DNA of 64,000 nucleotides, from the NCBI GenBank assembly GCA_009694745.1, contig SHUF01000004.1, positions 1 through 64,000 of the forward strand, written 5' to 3'. Source of the stretch: Acidobacteriota bacterium. Its GTDB lineage: Bacteria; Acidobacteriota; Vicinamibacteria; Vicinamibacterales; SCN-69-37. The notes beneath the pieces were generated by a model. It was not told where the DNA came from. It made no database searches and saw nothing but the letters and a program-made list of their open reading frames with translations. Below are positions 2,784 through 46,682 of the stretch, piece after piece; within the stretch, counting starts at the first letter, position 1, and the number at the start of each line of letters is the position of its first letter. The position numbers and the translations under genes are program-made.

Positions 2784-3020
2784 CTACTGGCTCTTGAATG
2801 CCACCGACCCCATGGACTTCTCCCACATGACCGTGAGGCGGCCACCGGTCTTGGTCATGTCCACGAATGCGATGGTGAACTCATCAACTGAATATGGCAG
2901 CGCGTCGAGTTTCATCGGCACGCGGAGGACGTCACGGTCCGGTGTGTAGTTGTAGGCGCCCCAGAGTTCGGCCTTGTTGGCCTGGTCGTATTTCTGTTGC
3001 GCGGGCCATGGGGAAAACAC
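2784..3020 (-). pseudogene. DUF2911-domain protein, 3' remnant
   Basis: Reads 78 aa with WGAYNYTPDRDVLRVP, LPYSVDEFTIAF and TVMWEK, the C-terminal half of the DUF2911 family (W-GAY-Y---EDVLRV--K, LPY-E-FTI-F, L-W-). Full-length members are about twice as long and have a signal peptide and an N-terminal half, absent here. The apparent ATG and first residues come from the repeat at 3010-3032, so the 5' part was lost where that repeat now sits. Probably not functional. Confidence 0.75.
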
Positions 3021-3032
3021 ACCCGTCCCCCT
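3010..3032 (-). repeat. Family A palindrome end (single arm)
   Basis: On the minus strand it reads TAGGGGGACGGGTGT followed by GTTTTCCCC, where TAG (3031-3033) is the stop of the AI-2E-family permease. The same 19-base string, GGGGACGGGTGTGTTTTCC, forms the ends of the perfect palindrome at 46565-46682, and GGGGACGGGTGT also ends the one at 12137-12268. Only one arm is present here, at the breakpoint of the DUF2911 gene. Confidence 0.8.
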
Positions 3033-11745: not shown

Positions 11746-12138
11746 ATGTCTTTGTCGCTCGACTGGAAAGGTGATCTCACGTTCGTCAACAGCGCCGGTT
11801 CGCCGGCGATTCATCTTGAGAGCAGCACACCGGGAGTGTCATCTCCAATGCACGTGCTCGCCTACGCCGCAATGGCGTGCATGGGGATGGATCTGGTGCA
11901 CATCCTGCAGAAGGGCCGTCACGACCTGAAGGGTCTCACGGTGCATTTCGACGGCGAGCGCGCCGCCGATTACCCGAAGCGCTACACCGCGATGCACTTG
12001 CGATTCGAGGTCACAGGCGACGTGCCCGAAGACGCCGTCGAGCGCGCCCTGACGCTCTCGCACGAGAAGTACTGCTCGGTGTCCAATTCCATCCGCGCGG
12101 ACATCGAGTTCAAGACTTCCTTCACGGTGACCAAGTAA
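11746..12138 (+). CDS. OsmC-family peroxidase-like protein
   Basis: 130 aa, the usual OsmC/Ohr fold length. It has SSPMHVLAYAAMACMGMD (first Cys on the central helix) and LSHEKYCSVSNSI (second Cys), the two reactive cysteines of thiol-dependent hydroperoxide reductases. Cytoplasmic, no signal peptide. Probably detoxifies organic peroxides, though OsmC relatives of uncharacterised role exist. It stands alone; the TAA stop (12136-12138) overlaps the first bases of a long palindromic repeat, which could act as its terminator. Confidence 0.88.
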   Translation: MSLSLDWKGDLTFVNSAGSPAIHLESSTPGVSSPMHVLAYAAMACMGMDLVHILQKGRHDLKGLTVHFDGERAADYPKRYTAMHLRFEVTGDVPEDAVERALTLSHEKYCSVSNSIRADIEFKTSFTVTK

Positions 12139-12268
12139 GGGGACGGGTGTCGATCTGTGGAAAAGTCCTGGAAAACGACCTCTGAGGTAGTTTTCGCGGA
12201 GGCCGAATCGAAAACTACCTCAGAGGTCGTTTTTCAGGACTTTTCCACAGATCGACACCCGTCCCCTT
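12137..12268. repeat. Family A long palindrome with family B palindromes nested inside
   Basis: Arms of 60 bases (12137-12196 and 12209-12268) match at 59 of 60 positions around a 12-base loop. Outer ends read AAGGGGACGGGTGT, followed inward by CGATCTGTGGAAAAGTCCTG and then a family B unit (ACGACCTCTGAGGTAGTTTT). It begins on the stop codon of the OsmC gene and runs into the next reading frame, where it encodes the first ~37 residues. It could fold as a strong hairpin. No transposase is nearby. Confidence 0.92.
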
Positions 12269-39158: not shown

Positions 39159-39221
39159 AAACGACCTCTGAGGTAGTTTTTTTCTCCCCTCTGAAGAAAA
39201 AAACTACCTCAGAGGTCGTTT
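39159..39221. repeat. Family B palindrome pair (hairpin) between the DtxR and feo genes
   Basis: Perfect 27-base arms (39159-39185 and 39195-39221) with a 9-base loop CCCCTCTGA. Each arm is itself a near-palindrome (ACGACCTCTGAGGTAGTTTT). Located 4 bases after the stop of the upstream minus-strand regulator and before the feo operon start, with T-runs of seven on one side, so it may act as a terminator. Confidence 0.9.
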
Positions 39222-41060: not shown

Positions 41061-42308
41061 CTACGTTCGCAGCACGCCCACCGCGCCGGATGCAGCCAGG
41101 GCAGCAATTCGTTCAGGCGCGTACCCGAGGTCGCTTTCGAGCACGGAGGCCGTATGCTCGCCCAGTCGCGGCGGCGGCGTGCGCACCGCCCCAGGCGTTT
41201 CCGAGAGCTTGACCGGCACACCAAGCACCTGCAAAGGACCGATGGTGGGATGGACGACCGACTCGACCATGGCCCTGGCCAGGATCTGGGGATCCTCGAG
41301 CGCTTCTCCCACCGAACGCACGGCGCCGCACGAGACGCCGGCCTCACGAAGGCGCGTGGCCCATCCCGCAGCGGTATCAGTGGCCAGCGCGCGGTTGACG
41401 ATCAGTTCAAGCGCGTCGATGTGCTCGACGCGACCGGTATTGGTGGCGAATCTGGCGTCGGCGCCCACCTGCGGGAGTCCGGCGACGACACAGAAGCGCT
41501 GGAACTGGTCGTCGTTGCCCACGGCAAGGACCAGCACACCGTCGGCAGTGGCAAACGTGTTGTACGGCGCGATGGCCGCGTGTTTGTTGCCGAGGCGATT
41601 GGGCGAGACGCCGGTGGCGAGATAACGCCCGGCCTGATAGGTCAGCAGTGCCGCGCACGAATCCAGCAGGCTGATGTCCACATGCTGGCCTTTGCCCGTG
41701 CGGCCTTTGGCAATCATCGCGAGCAGCATGCCCTGGAACGCAAACATGCCGGCCGCGATGTCGGCAATCGCCACTCCCAGACGCACCGCAGGACCGTCGC
41801 GCGCGCCGGTCACACTCATCAGTCCGCCCTCGGCTTGAATCACCGCGTCGTAGCCCGCTTCTTCTCGTCGTGGTCCGGTGTGCCCGAAGCTCGAGATTGA
41901 GACGTAAATCAATCCCGGATGCTTTTCCGAGACAGCGCCGTAACCCAGGCCACGATCATCCAGCGTGCCGGGCCGGAAGTTCTCGGCGAGGACGTCGGCG
42001 CGGGCGATGAGGGCGTCGAGCACGGCGCGGCCATCGGGCGTGGTGTAGTCGAGCGCCACACTTTCCTTGTTGCGATTGACGCTCAGGTAATACGAGCTCT
42101 CGCCTTCAAGGAACGGCGGACCCCACGCGCGGGTGTCGTCGCCGCGGCGCGGGTGCTCGATCTTGATGACGCGGGCGCCCATGTCTGCGGCGAGCATCGT
42201 GCAGTACGGACCCGACAGGACGCGCGTCAGGTCGAGGATGGTGACGCCAGAGAGTGGTCCCGTGCTTGGATCGGAGCCGTTTGAAACGACCTCAGAGGTC
42301 GTTTTCAT
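41061..42308 (-). CDS. CaiB/BaiF-family (class III) CoA transferase
   Basis: 415 aa. After residues 1-15, encoded partly by a family B palindrome (MKTTSEVVSNGSDP), the family starts with GVTILDLTRVLSGPYCTMLAADMGARVIKIE. Further: YLSVNRNKESVALDY, DVLAENFRPG with Asp/Glu, the catalytic Asp region in AGYDAVIQAEGGLMSVTG, and the C-terminal GVPVKLSETPG. Transfers CoA between carboxylic acids (formyl-, succinyl- or 2-hydroxyacyl-type substrates). Its start overlaps the stop of the homoserine dehydrogenase gene (ATGA), created within the repeat. Substrate unknown. Confidence 0.88.
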   Translation of the reverse strand: MKTTSEVVSNGSDPSTGPLSGVTILDLTRVLSGPYCTMLAADMGARVIKIEHPRRGDDTRAWGPPFLEGESSYYLSVNRNKESVALDYTTPDGRAVLDALIARADVLAENFRPGTLDDRGLGYGAVSEKHPGLIYVSISSFGHTGPRREEAGYDAVIQAEGGLMSVTGARDGPAVRLGVAIADIAAGMFAFQGMLLAMIAKGRTGKGQHVDISLLDSCAALLTYQAGRYLATGVSPNRLGNKHAAIAPYNTFATADGVLVLAVGNDDQFQRFCVVAGLPQVGADARFATNTGRVEHIDALELIVNRALATDTAAGWATRLREAGVSCGAVRSVGEALEDPQILARAMVESVVHPTIGPLQVLGVPVKLSETPGAVRTPPPRLGEHTASVLESDLGYAPERIAALAASGAVGVLRT

Positions 42309-42343
42309 GGTGTCCCCTCTGAAAACGACCTCTGAGGTCGTTT
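42284..42343. repeat. Family B palindrome pair at the homoserine dehydrogenase/CoA-transferase junction
   Basis: Two perfect palindromes, arms AAACGACCTC and GAGGTCGTTT around one base (42284-42304 and 42323-42343), separated by a spacer containing TCCCCTCTGA, the same linker as at 39186-39195. The minus-strand TGA and ATG of the two flanking genes lie in the spacer. Confidence 0.9.
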
Positions 42344-43387
42344 CGGCACCGCTTTCGACGTCGCGTTCGCCACCGCGATCAAATCCACAAACAGCGCGTA
42401 CGCGGTCTTCTCCAGCCCTCCGTCGCGTTGTGTGATCACCACACGTCCCAGAATGTCCGTTTCGATCTCCAGAGCGTTCGCCTGTCCTTCGAGGCTCCCG
42501 AGCGGGTCACTCACGTCCAGGGTTTCCAGCTGCACACTTGCACGCACGCCAACATTCGTCCGCGTGGCCCGGCCCACCAGCTTCACGTGGTGGCCCACTG
42601 CAACCGCGGCCAAAAGGCGCGGGGCGTCGACAGCCGAAATTCCTTCGCGCTCCACATCGCGCGGCGTGATGCCGGCATCCATCCAGACGTTGGCCATCGC
42701 CGCCACCTTCGCGGCCGCGTCCCAGCCATCCACATCCAGTGACGCATCGGCCTCCGCCACCCCGGCGGCCTGCATGCGCGCAAGGGCCGCATCGAAGGCT
42801 TCGCCGCGTTCCATGGCCGTAAGAATGTGGTTGGTGGTGCTGTTCACGACGCCGCGAAACGAGCCGATTTTCACTCCCGGCATGGTCTCTCGCACGAGGT
42901 TGAAGATCGGGATGCCGTCCATGACCGCACCTTCGAAGAGGAACTGCAGGCCGGCGGCACGAGCCTCGGCAGCAAGCGCGCGATACGCATGCGCCACGGG
43001 TCCCTTGTTCGCGCTGATGACATGCGCGCCTGCGGCAAACGCCGCCCGGATGTGAGAAATCGCGGGCTCTCCAGACTGCACATCCAGAGGTGTCGTCTCA
43101 ACCATTACGCGGGCCTCGGTGTCGAGGGAACCAAGCTGGTGGATGAGGTCATGTGCTGTGAGCGATGCCGAGCCTGGCCCAACCAGGCCGCCGCCGGCCA
43201 CTCGTTGTGCCGCTTGTACGGTGTCGAGGCCCGCCCTGTCGAACACGGCGCCATGATGACCAGTCGCGATCGCCACCACGGTGACCTCGATGCCTCGCCC
43301 GTCGAGCGCCGGCTTGAGTTCCTGCAACAGAAGCGCAAACCTGCGGCCGACGTGGCCGAACCCGATGAGTGCCAGCGCAATACGCAA
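42305..43387 (-). CDS. hom: Homoserine dehydrogenase
   Basis: 360 aa from a TTG (MRIALALIGFGHVGRRF, Rossmann GFGHVG). Then TTPLDVQSG, AGAHVISANKGPVA, QFLFEGAVMDGIPIFNL, FRGVVNSTTNHILTAM, ADASLDVDGWDAAAKVA (catalytic Asp-Asp-Lys region with the K in AAAKVA). It lacks a C-terminal ACT domain, as in short monofunctional forms. Reduces aspartate semialdehyde to homoserine. The last nine residues (RPQRSFSEG) are encoded by the family B repeat, so the native C-terminus was probably replaced. Start codon is non-ATG; the context is divergent from the SIMPL gene. Confidence 0.88.
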   Translation of the reverse strand: MRIALALIGFGHVGRRFALLLQELKPALDGRGIEVTVVAIATGHHGAVFDRAGLDTVQAAQRVAGGGLVGPGSASLTAHDLIHQLGSLDTEARVMVETTPLDVQSGEPAISHIRAAFAAGAHVISANKGPVAHAYRALAAEARAAGLQFLFEGAVMDGIPIFNLVRETMPGVKIGSFRGVVNSTTNHILTAMERGEAFDAALARMQAAGVAEADASLDVDGWDAAAKVAAMANVWMDAGITPRDVEREGISAVDAPRLLAAVAVGHHVKLVGRATRTNVGVRASVQLETLDVSDPLGSLEGQANALEIETDILGRVVITQRDGGLEKTAYALFVDLIAVANATSKAVPKRPQRSFSEGTP

Positions 43388-45420: not shown

Positions 45421-46566
45421 GTGACAGCCCCGGTCACAGCGCGAGTCACGGCATTCGATCGCCTTCGAGGACTGATTATGGTCCTGATGGCGATCGATCA
45501 CGCGGCTTTTTTCATTGCGCGTGTGCATCCTGCCGAGACCTGGGCGGCCCCGCCGCCCTACTACGCCGACGTGCCGGCGTTCCTCACGCGATGGCTCACA
45601 CACCTGTGCGCGCCCGGCTTCTTCATGCTGATGGGCATAGGCCTGGTGTGGTTTGCCGAGAGCCGGGGCCCGGCAGGATGGTCCTCCGGCCGGATCACGC
45701 GGTTCTTTGTCACGCGTGGCGCCATGTTGCTGCTCGTGCAGCACGTGCTGGAGAACCCAGCGTGGTTGCTGGGGTTGGCGTCGATGGACCCGACGGTTGG
45801 GGCCGCCCAGCCCGGGTTGCCGGGTGTGCCTGCCAATGTCATGTTGGCCTTTGCGGTTCTTAGCGCACTCGGCATCGCCATGATCTTCTGGGGCATGTGC
45901 CGGCGGCTGCCGCTGTGGGCGATCGGTGCGGTCTGTGGCGTGGCGTTCTGGTTGAGTCGTGTGATGCTGCCGGACATTTCGGAAAGCGCCGAGGCCATTC
46001 CCGTCTGGAAGTTGCTGCTCTTCGTCCCCGGTCAAGGTGGCATTGTCCAAAACATGTATCCGTGGGTGATCTGGCTTGTGCCGGCCGGCGTTGGGGTCGC
46101 GCTCGGTCGCGTGTTCTTGCGAGAGCCACAGCGCGTCAGTGCCGTGGCTGCGGCGGCGGCGGTTGTCGGCGTCACTACATTTGTCATGATGCGACTCGCA
46201 GGTCTGGGCGACGTGCATACGCCTGCCGATGGTGTGATGGGCTGGTTGAGCGTGACGAAGTACCCGCCCTCGGAGAGTTTCCTGGCGCTCATGCTCGGAC
46301 TGGACCTGGCGATCATCGCGGCGCTCTCGAAGTGGCCGTCACGTTGGCTGGCCCCGCTCGGGGTCTTCGGCCGCGTGCCGTTCTTCTTCTACCTCGCGCA
46401 CCTCTGGGCGTTTGGCGTTCTCAGTTGGGCGTTCCCGTCAGGCACGTCGTTTGCGGTGATGTATCTGGTATGGGCCGTCGTGATCGCCGCGCTCTACCCC
46501 GCCTGCGCCGCCTACGCCCGCTTCAAGTTCGGGAAACCTTCGACATCGGCTTGGAGGATTTTTTAG
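45421..46566 (+). CDS. DUF1624/heparan-alpha-glucosaminide N-acetyltransferase-type membrane protein
   Basis: 381 aa from GTG 45421. Starts with FDRLRGLIMVLMAIDHAAFFI, the typical first helix (LRGL-M-LM--DH), then APGFFMLMGIGLVWFAESR and about nine more membrane helices, ending in FFFYLAHLWAFGVLSWAF. It belongs to the same broad superfamily as the protein at 12157, though of another subgroup. Catalysis of an acyl transfer to a sugar is the family precedent. The stop TAG (46564-46566) coincides with the left end of a family A palindrome, which may have cut a few C-terminal residues. Confidence 0.82.
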   Translation: MTAPVTARVTAFDRLRGLIMVLMAIDHAAFFIARVHPAETWAAPPPYYADVPAFLTRWLTHLCAPGFFMLMGIGLVWFAESRGPAGWSSGRITRFFVTRGAMLLLVQHVLENPAWLLGLASMDPTVGAAQPGLPGVPANVMLAFAVLSALGIAMIFWGMCRRLPLWAIGAVCGVAFWLSRVMLPDISESAEAIPVWKLLLFVPGQGGIVQNMYPWVIWLVPAGVGVALGRVFLREPQRVSAVAAAAAVVGVTTFVMMRLAGLGDVHTPADGVMGWLSVTKYPPSESFLALMLGLDLAIIAALSKWPSRWLAPLGVFGRVPFFFYLAHLWAFGVLSWAFPSGTSFAVMYLVWAVVIAALYPACAAYARFKFGKPSTSAWRIF

Positions 46567-46682
46567 GGGGACGGGTGTGTTTTCCACAGAAACGCTCGAA
46601 ATGGGGACAGGTCTCTCACGGAACCAGAAGAGAGACCTGTCCCCATTTCGAGCGTTTCTGTGGAAAACACACCCGTCCCCCT
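46565..46682. repeat. Family A long perfect palindrome
   Basis: Arms 46565-46617 and 46630-46682 are identical over 53 bases around a 12-base loop (ACGGAACCAGAA). From outside in: GGGGACGGGTGTGTTTTCC, ACAGAAACGCTCGAA, ATGGGGACAGGTCTCTC. The left end is the TAG stop of the upstream gene. Ends and loop length match the palindrome at 12137-12268, while the middle differs. Confidence 0.95.

Follow-up and report, generated by a model that had tools for sequence, protein, structure and literature searches.

TIRYT (terminal-inverted-repeat-associated tyrosine) transposases are accompanied by TIRs that contain GGGGWSAS, have copies dispersed as dimers and include a group in Acidobacteria (Di Nocera, De Gregorio and Rocco 2013, PMC3733652). 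Most TIRYTs belong to subclass 2.1 and possess a DnaA-like C-terminal domain (PMC6006769). In related strains, one REP class can replace another together with the RAYT (PMC3686654), and REPs are known targets of insertion sequences (PMC1525189). Template switching both creates and repairs hairpins (PMC8794818). The palindrome described here, for which a TIRYT/REPIN-RAYT system is the closest described kind, was found in a 64,000-nucleotide stretch of contig SHUF01000004.1 from an uncultured Acidobacteriota bacterium (hereafter the window). At a probability of roughly 0.75, we read it as a mobile hairpin that is non-autonomous, made of two inverted copies of the terminal repeat of RAYT-1, a REP-associated Y1/HUH transposase that would mobilise it in trans.

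The window contains four long near-perfect palindromes, at 46.5 kb, 12.1 kb, 39159 and 42283 (Table 1). For the 46.5-kb palindrome, coordinates, pairing and DNA fold all agree with the perfect 53-base arms and 12-base loop described in an earlier note on this DNA. When folded as DNA, its strand forms a single uninterrupted hairpin of -72.6 kcal/mol (z = -21.8; 200 shuffles with a mean of -17.0 kcal/mol). The earlier note had paired this copy with the one at 12.1 kb, and the two have a common end, GGGGACGGGTGT, a loop of 12 nt and unlike middles, as it stated; the middles reflect two arm types and the nested insertion of another REP family. A 10-mer, TGTGGAAAA(C/G), is present in the arms of both copies in opposite orientation. 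It is followed by a variable spacer and then GGGGACAGGTCTCTC in the 46.5-kb copy, and by the inner hairpin of another family in the 12.1-kb copy.

Table 1. Positions of the palindromes and associated features in the window.
Feature	Position	Strand	Remarks
Solo A end AGGGGGACGGGTGTGTTTTCCCC, no partner arm	3019-3030	-	
A-I palindrome with family-B hairpin nested at apex	12137-12268	.	Orthologous site in G086 without palindrome
Family-B palindrome (AAACGACCTCTGAGGT...)	39159-39221	.	Empty site in G086 and G051
Family-B palindrome	42283-42344	.	Orthologous site: family C in G086, family B in G080, other RAYT-type in G021 and G032
TAG stop codon of upstream gene (45421-46566)	46564-46566	+	T from the gene, AG the first two bases of the element
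A-II palindrome, two perfect 53-nt arms and 12-nt loop	46565-46682	.	Pairing, DNA fold
A-II arm blocks: AGGGGGACGGGTGT / GTTTTCCACAG / variable spacer / GGGGACAGGTCTC	46565-46682		
Left arm	46565-46617	+	Blocks match the RAYT-1 5' flank in order
TTTTCCACA, DnaA-box-like, left arm	46580-46588	+	Identical to the 9-mer clustered beside dnaA
Apical 12-nt loop ACGGAACCAGAA	46618-46629	.	Length near constant among copies, sequence free
Right arm	46630-46682		100% complementary to 46565-46617
Mirror TTTTCCACA, right arm	46659-46667	-	

The end GGGGACGGGTGT is repeated well beyond the window: the 2.79-Mb host genome (G000) has 28 exact matches, 14 per strand, against 0 for the reversed control, which bears out the expectation of further copies. 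Together with the 53-nt arms and the z-score of the fold, this count rules out a chance origin of the palindrome. Most of the matches pair up to form palindromes of approximately 36-180 bases. Palindromes were located by motif searches and inspection of the stretches around the matches, a procedure that surely missed some, and the resulting figure of about 16-17 dispersed A hairpins in the host genome is, like our other palindrome counts, a lower bound because the assemblies are drafts in which palindromes tend to lie at contig ends. Copies of the A element are dispersed as single, dimeric or grouped units, as TIRYT copies are, and many are extragenic and in inverted pairs, as in REPIN-RAYT systems; many are located at gene ends. 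Solo half-ends occur at window position 3019 and at C56 and C71. We also observed an A palindrome with a nested family-C hairpin (C28:58514 to the contig end) that lies apparently inside the reading frame of a gene similar to histidine ammonia-lyase and may be either an in-gene insertion or an assembly break.

Two arm types can be distinguished. A-I arms have GGGGACGGGTGTCGATCTGTGGAAAACTC followed by a variable stem; A-II arms, including those of the 46.5-kb copy, have GGGGACGGGTGTGTTTTCCACAGA, a variable spacer of approximately 11 nt and GGGGACAGGTCTC. Elements are bounded by A|GGGG(G)AC, with A at position -1 in 90 of 102 ends, and the loops are mostly 11-14 nt in length and free in sequence. 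When the 46.5-kb copy is compared over its full sequence with the spacer, its nearest relatives are palindromes that G080 (88%) and G086 (86%) carry at other sites, so the different middle of this copy is a subfamily mark.

The absence of a transposase stated in the earlier note holds for the window but not for the genome, which contains two Y1_Tnp (PF01797) genes with scores above the PF01797 cut-off. One of these, RAYT-1 (C65:2812-3423, 203 aa), is directly preceded by AGGGGGACGGGTGTGTTTTCCACAGAATTAGCCATTTCGGGGACAGGTCTC, in which the blocks are arranged as in a single arm of the 46.5-kb palindrome; the two GGGGAC motifs are 36 nt apart in both the left arm and the RAYT-1 5' flank. In a within-genome search, the left arm and this flank (C65:2724-2775) are 82% identical over 52 nt (E = 1e-5). 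A Y1 gene bordered by palindrome ends, proposed earlier as the thing to look for, is thus present, with the end on its 5' flank; no 3' copy of the A end or GTCCCC follows the RAYT-1 stop codon in G000 or in the orthologues.

RAYT-1 has a fixed place between purN and purM, and orthologues were found in 4 of 7 genus members (identity to RAYT-1: G086, 95%; G051, 80%; G091, 73%). All adjoin purM; at G051 both purN and purM were read. There is one copy per genome, in the same purN-purM place where checked, rather than the multiple copies typical of IS200/IS605. The HUH and Tyr motifs are intact (MPNHWHLV and CRYVERNA), and a dN/dS of 0.11-0.16, computed from the orthologues other than that of G051, indicates purifying selection. 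Y1_Tnp is the only Pfam domain in the protein, which has no DnaA-like C-terminal domain; its sole NCBIfam match is the RAYT model NF047646, below the cut-off (68 versus 80 bits), and a sequence search found no matching solved structure.

The distribution of the A-end motif was compared with that of the gene. The motif is found 28 times in G000, 29 in G086, 26 in G051 and 3 in G091; these are the four RAYT-1 genomes, and in the last the 5' end of RAYT-1 has decayed. Other genus members have 0, 1 and 3 motifs, and genomes elsewhere in the order have 6 or fewer. In other genera of the family, the purN-region homologue lacks the HUH motif (LPNAWHLV in G059, LTDECHLV in G042), and genomes with such a homologue have 0-2 motif copies. 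The frames of the G042 and G059 homologues are open and conserved, and these proteins appear to be catalytically dead yet retained.

The true mobiliser could instead be another transposase, missing from the incomplete assembly, with RAYT-1 merely lying beside one copy of the repeat. At 83% completeness, the host genome assembly may lack another cognate transposase; in G080, whose assembly is 85% complete, A palindromes occur and no RAYT-1 orthologue was found, which counts against RAYT-1 as the mobiliser, as do the restriction of the A end to the 5' side of the gene, its 3' side being without a repeat, and our failure to find a family-B transposase. We nevertheless consider this explanation improbable. 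Across the orthologues the 5' end is conserved or decaying, and the repeat persists there down to 80% identity. The other Y1 gene, RAYT-2 (C24), and its counterparts in G032 and G080 have a palindrome of another kind, family C, on either flank, and RAYT-2 is therefore rejected as the A mobiliser on the simplest reading. Y1 genes of G021, G067, G074 and G096 likewise each carry palindromes of their own. Family B (ACGACCTCNGAGGT) has 47 + 46 exact matches in the genome, in which no Y1 gene bordered by this family was found.

Mobility of the A hairpins is apparent at orthologous sites. The flanks of 12 A sites were located in the genus and the orthologous stretches aligned. In G086, the sites corresponding to 12.1 kb, C2 and C79 are without a palindrome, C42a shows only a short remnant and C55 has family C without A; A is present in G086 at C26, C42b, C43, C65:44.1k and C66. 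Because several sites are empty in this sister species, the A hairpins are dispersed elements and not fixed terminators, and the alternative named in the earlier note, a terminator of constant position, is at odds with A sites that vary between related species. At the 46.5-kb site, where the flanks are approximately 87% identical in G086, that species has kept the right arm and right junction, whereas the neighbouring gene end has gone together with the left arm. The element therefore predates the species split, and a fresh duplication is ruled out.

Orthologous sites are often occupied by palindromes of different families, as at C55, C43 and window position 42283. The loops of the palindromes orthologous to 42283-42344 are partly similar in appearance, suggesting turnover of the arms in place. 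Unrelated long palindrome families (TGCGGGTGGAGGGCGG... at G021:C8 and CGACGTTCCGAAGTCC... at G032:C22) were also seen where the host genome has A.

The perfect arms had earlier been attributed to recent origin or gene conversion. The right arm at the orthologous G086 site speaks against the former; the latter agrees with homogenisation of the arms. Among nine A-II copies from three species, arms within a copy differ at a mean of 1.2 of 45 positions, as compared to 8.4 of 45 between copies. Symmetric double substitutions are frequent between orthologous copies (5 double versus 8 single at C26, C43 and C66), and the C66 loop in G051 differs almost wholly in sequence while keeping its length of 12. 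Four of the 11 unpaired arm cells are G-T pairs, indicating that RNA-level wobble tolerance is not dominant. The arms of A hairpins thus evolve in concert, for which homogenisation is a better fit than recent origin. Template switching within the hairpin, we infer, may explain arm identity without a recent birth (PMC7202029, PMC8794818), and selection for the hairpin could contribute.

A stronger version of this idea is that the palindromes arose mainly by replication template switching, as fold-back duplications at a dispersed half-repeat, and not by transposition of a dimer. It would accommodate the identity of arms within copies whose spacers differ, the solo half-ends listed above and the symmetric extension of stems around nested inserts, and template switching is known to make and mend hairpins (PMC8794818). 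It leaves unexplained why the copies are dispersed with conserved A-GGGG ends, why some sites are empty and why high copy number is restricted to RAYT-1 genomes, and we regard it as unlikely. Transposition of a RAYT-1 repeat dimer remains the preferred reading of these three features.

In 10 of the approximately 17 A palindromes of the host genome, counted by eye on the sequences, another REP family sits exactly at the apex. Family B is nested at 12.1 kb, C2, C18, C42a, C65:44.1k and C79, and family C at C28 and C43; at C51 and C59, the A-II spacer and inner motif are followed by B. The 10 nested insertions observed compare with 0.01-0.09 expected for approximately 70 B and C loci (our own estimate) and a loop target of approximately 340 nt. 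At two of these loci, C43 with C nested in A and C65:44.1k with B nested in A, just the outer A hairpin is present in G086; this gives the order of events if a gain in the host's own lineage is simpler than a precise loss in G086. In the host, all bases of the C43 stem that separates A from C are paired, and the same bases form a loop in G086, as expected if the insertion was followed by templated correction.

The succession of families at orthologous sites would be explained if one hairpin were inserted inside another and the outer layer then eroded; alternatively, permissive gene ends may have received insertions repeatedly. We tentatively suggest, at somewhat less than even odds, that the extruded, single-stranded loops of REP/TIR hairpins are landing pads for REP dimers of other RAYT families, with subsequent zipping of the stems by templated correction, erosion of the outer layers and family succession, and that in the A family a DnaA box in each arm may link these events to replication. 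No report of REP dimers nested in REP hairpins was found in the open-access literature text.

The link to DnaA arises from the 9-mer TTTTCCACA, which clusters near dnaA in seven genomes of the genus. Most A-I and A-II arms contain it as a module, oriented oppositely in the two types, and A elements account for about half (21/41) of its genomic copies. Given also that a DnaA-like domain is common at the C terminus of TIRYT transposases (PMC6006769), the A arms might carry DnaA boxes and act as a DnaA-binding or titration site, or couple transposition to replication initiation. This is doubtful: substitutions in the 9-mer neither follow DnaA-box degeneracy nor avoid the positions critical for DnaA, RAYT-1 is without the DnaA-like domain and the match was noticed post hoc. 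DnaA titration as the main function is accordingly a lead only, since the substitutions depart from DnaA-box degeneracy. As a side observation, all four copies of the 9-mer in the window (12156-12164, 12241-12249 and the two in Table 1) are inside the two A palindromes.

Least probable, and very unlikely in our judgement, is the reading that selection keeps the palindrome at this gene end to terminate transcription or, as a 3' hairpin, to stabilise the mRNA, with only incidental spread. In its favour, the element begins inside the upstream gene's stop codon, many A copies are at gene ends and A arms remain paired. Against it, the hairpin lacks a following T-run, a search for terminator-like sites found none on it, orthologous gene ends in sister species are without it, and the A ends are conserved in sequence and not in structure alone. 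An intrinsic terminator is rejected on the missing T-run and the variation in position between species, and a known RNA family on an Rfam search without a match. The G021 orthologue of the upstream gene ends with TGA at the same codon.

According to the preferred reading, a single, vertically inherited RAYT-1 between purN and purM would mobilise the A hairpins in trans. It would recognise the hairpin in single-stranded form, probably at the replication fork, and move it into sites that are often at or just after stop codons. The arms would then be kept identical by quasipalindrome correction, in which replication switches template from one arm to the other, and the single-stranded loop of the extruded hairpin may offer a preferred landing place for other REPs; such landings would produce Russian-doll palindromes in which one REP family succeeds another at the same site. 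From sequence comparison we infer transposition, insertion targeted to the apex, and template switching. The earlier proposal of a REP-like palindrome moved in trans by a Y1 transposase is borne out by the copies, the RAYT-1 end and the presence/absence pattern, but the element is not a classical REP, as it has no GTAG foot. That core idea is well supported; what it missed were the transposase in the genome, the likeness to TIR dimers, the two arm types and the nesting at the apex.

How REPs and REPINs spread and why their arms stay perfect are open questions. The genus offers a natural series, from genomes with RAYT-1 and many copies, through one with a decayed end and few copies, to HUH-less genera, and orthologous sites represent all the stages, from empty sites through single and nested hairpins to half-eroded ones. 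Apex insertion and template-switch homogenisation are thereby open to testing.

With TIRYT/TIRtron elements, the A system has in common a Y1/HUH transposase, long inverted repeats, the lack of a GTAG foot and dispersed TIR dimers; of its GGGGWSAS-like motifs, the inner GGGGACAG is an exact fit and the outer GGGGACGG is one letter off. TIRYT/TIRtrons have TIRs at both gene ends, whereas the RAYT-1 repeat is on the 5' side only, and the DnaA-like C-terminal helix-turn-helix domain of subclass 2.1 is absent from RAYT-1. RAYT-1 therefore works in the manner of a TIRYT/REPIN-RAYT system but lacks some of the defining features. Unlike TIRYT/TIRtrons, A dimers also host nested insertions of other REP families. 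REPIN-RAYT systems (PMC2817692; PMC3116915) are similar in their single-copy, vertically inherited RAYT under purifying selection, their extragenic inverted repeat dimers and their species-specific copy number, and probably in the cognate ends of the RAYT gene, which RAYT-1 has on its 5' flank only. Their foot is GTAG/GTGG (or CGTC) rather than the A-GGGG(G)AC of the A element, in which, moreover, the arm is itself no hairpin, arms reach 53-60 nt and families are nested concentrically. RAYT-1 is unlike the transposase of IS200/IS605, which is multicopy and mobile between LE and RE.

IS1397 and ISPpu9 (PMC1525189, PMC8450116) resemble the nested families in that palindromic repeats are preferred landing sites for mobile DNA; here, in contrast, the incoming element is a REP dimer, the landing is concentric and the palindromes become multi-layered. 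Quasipalindrome template-switch mutagenesis (PMC7202029, PMC8794818) gives the same identical arms and symmetric change, but it is a host replication process and not an element, and would here act on mobile hairpins. Finally, different REP classes also succeed one another in the REP orthoswitch (PMC3686654); unlike in that case, the succession seen here takes place at single orthologous intergenic sites (window position 42283, C43 and C55).
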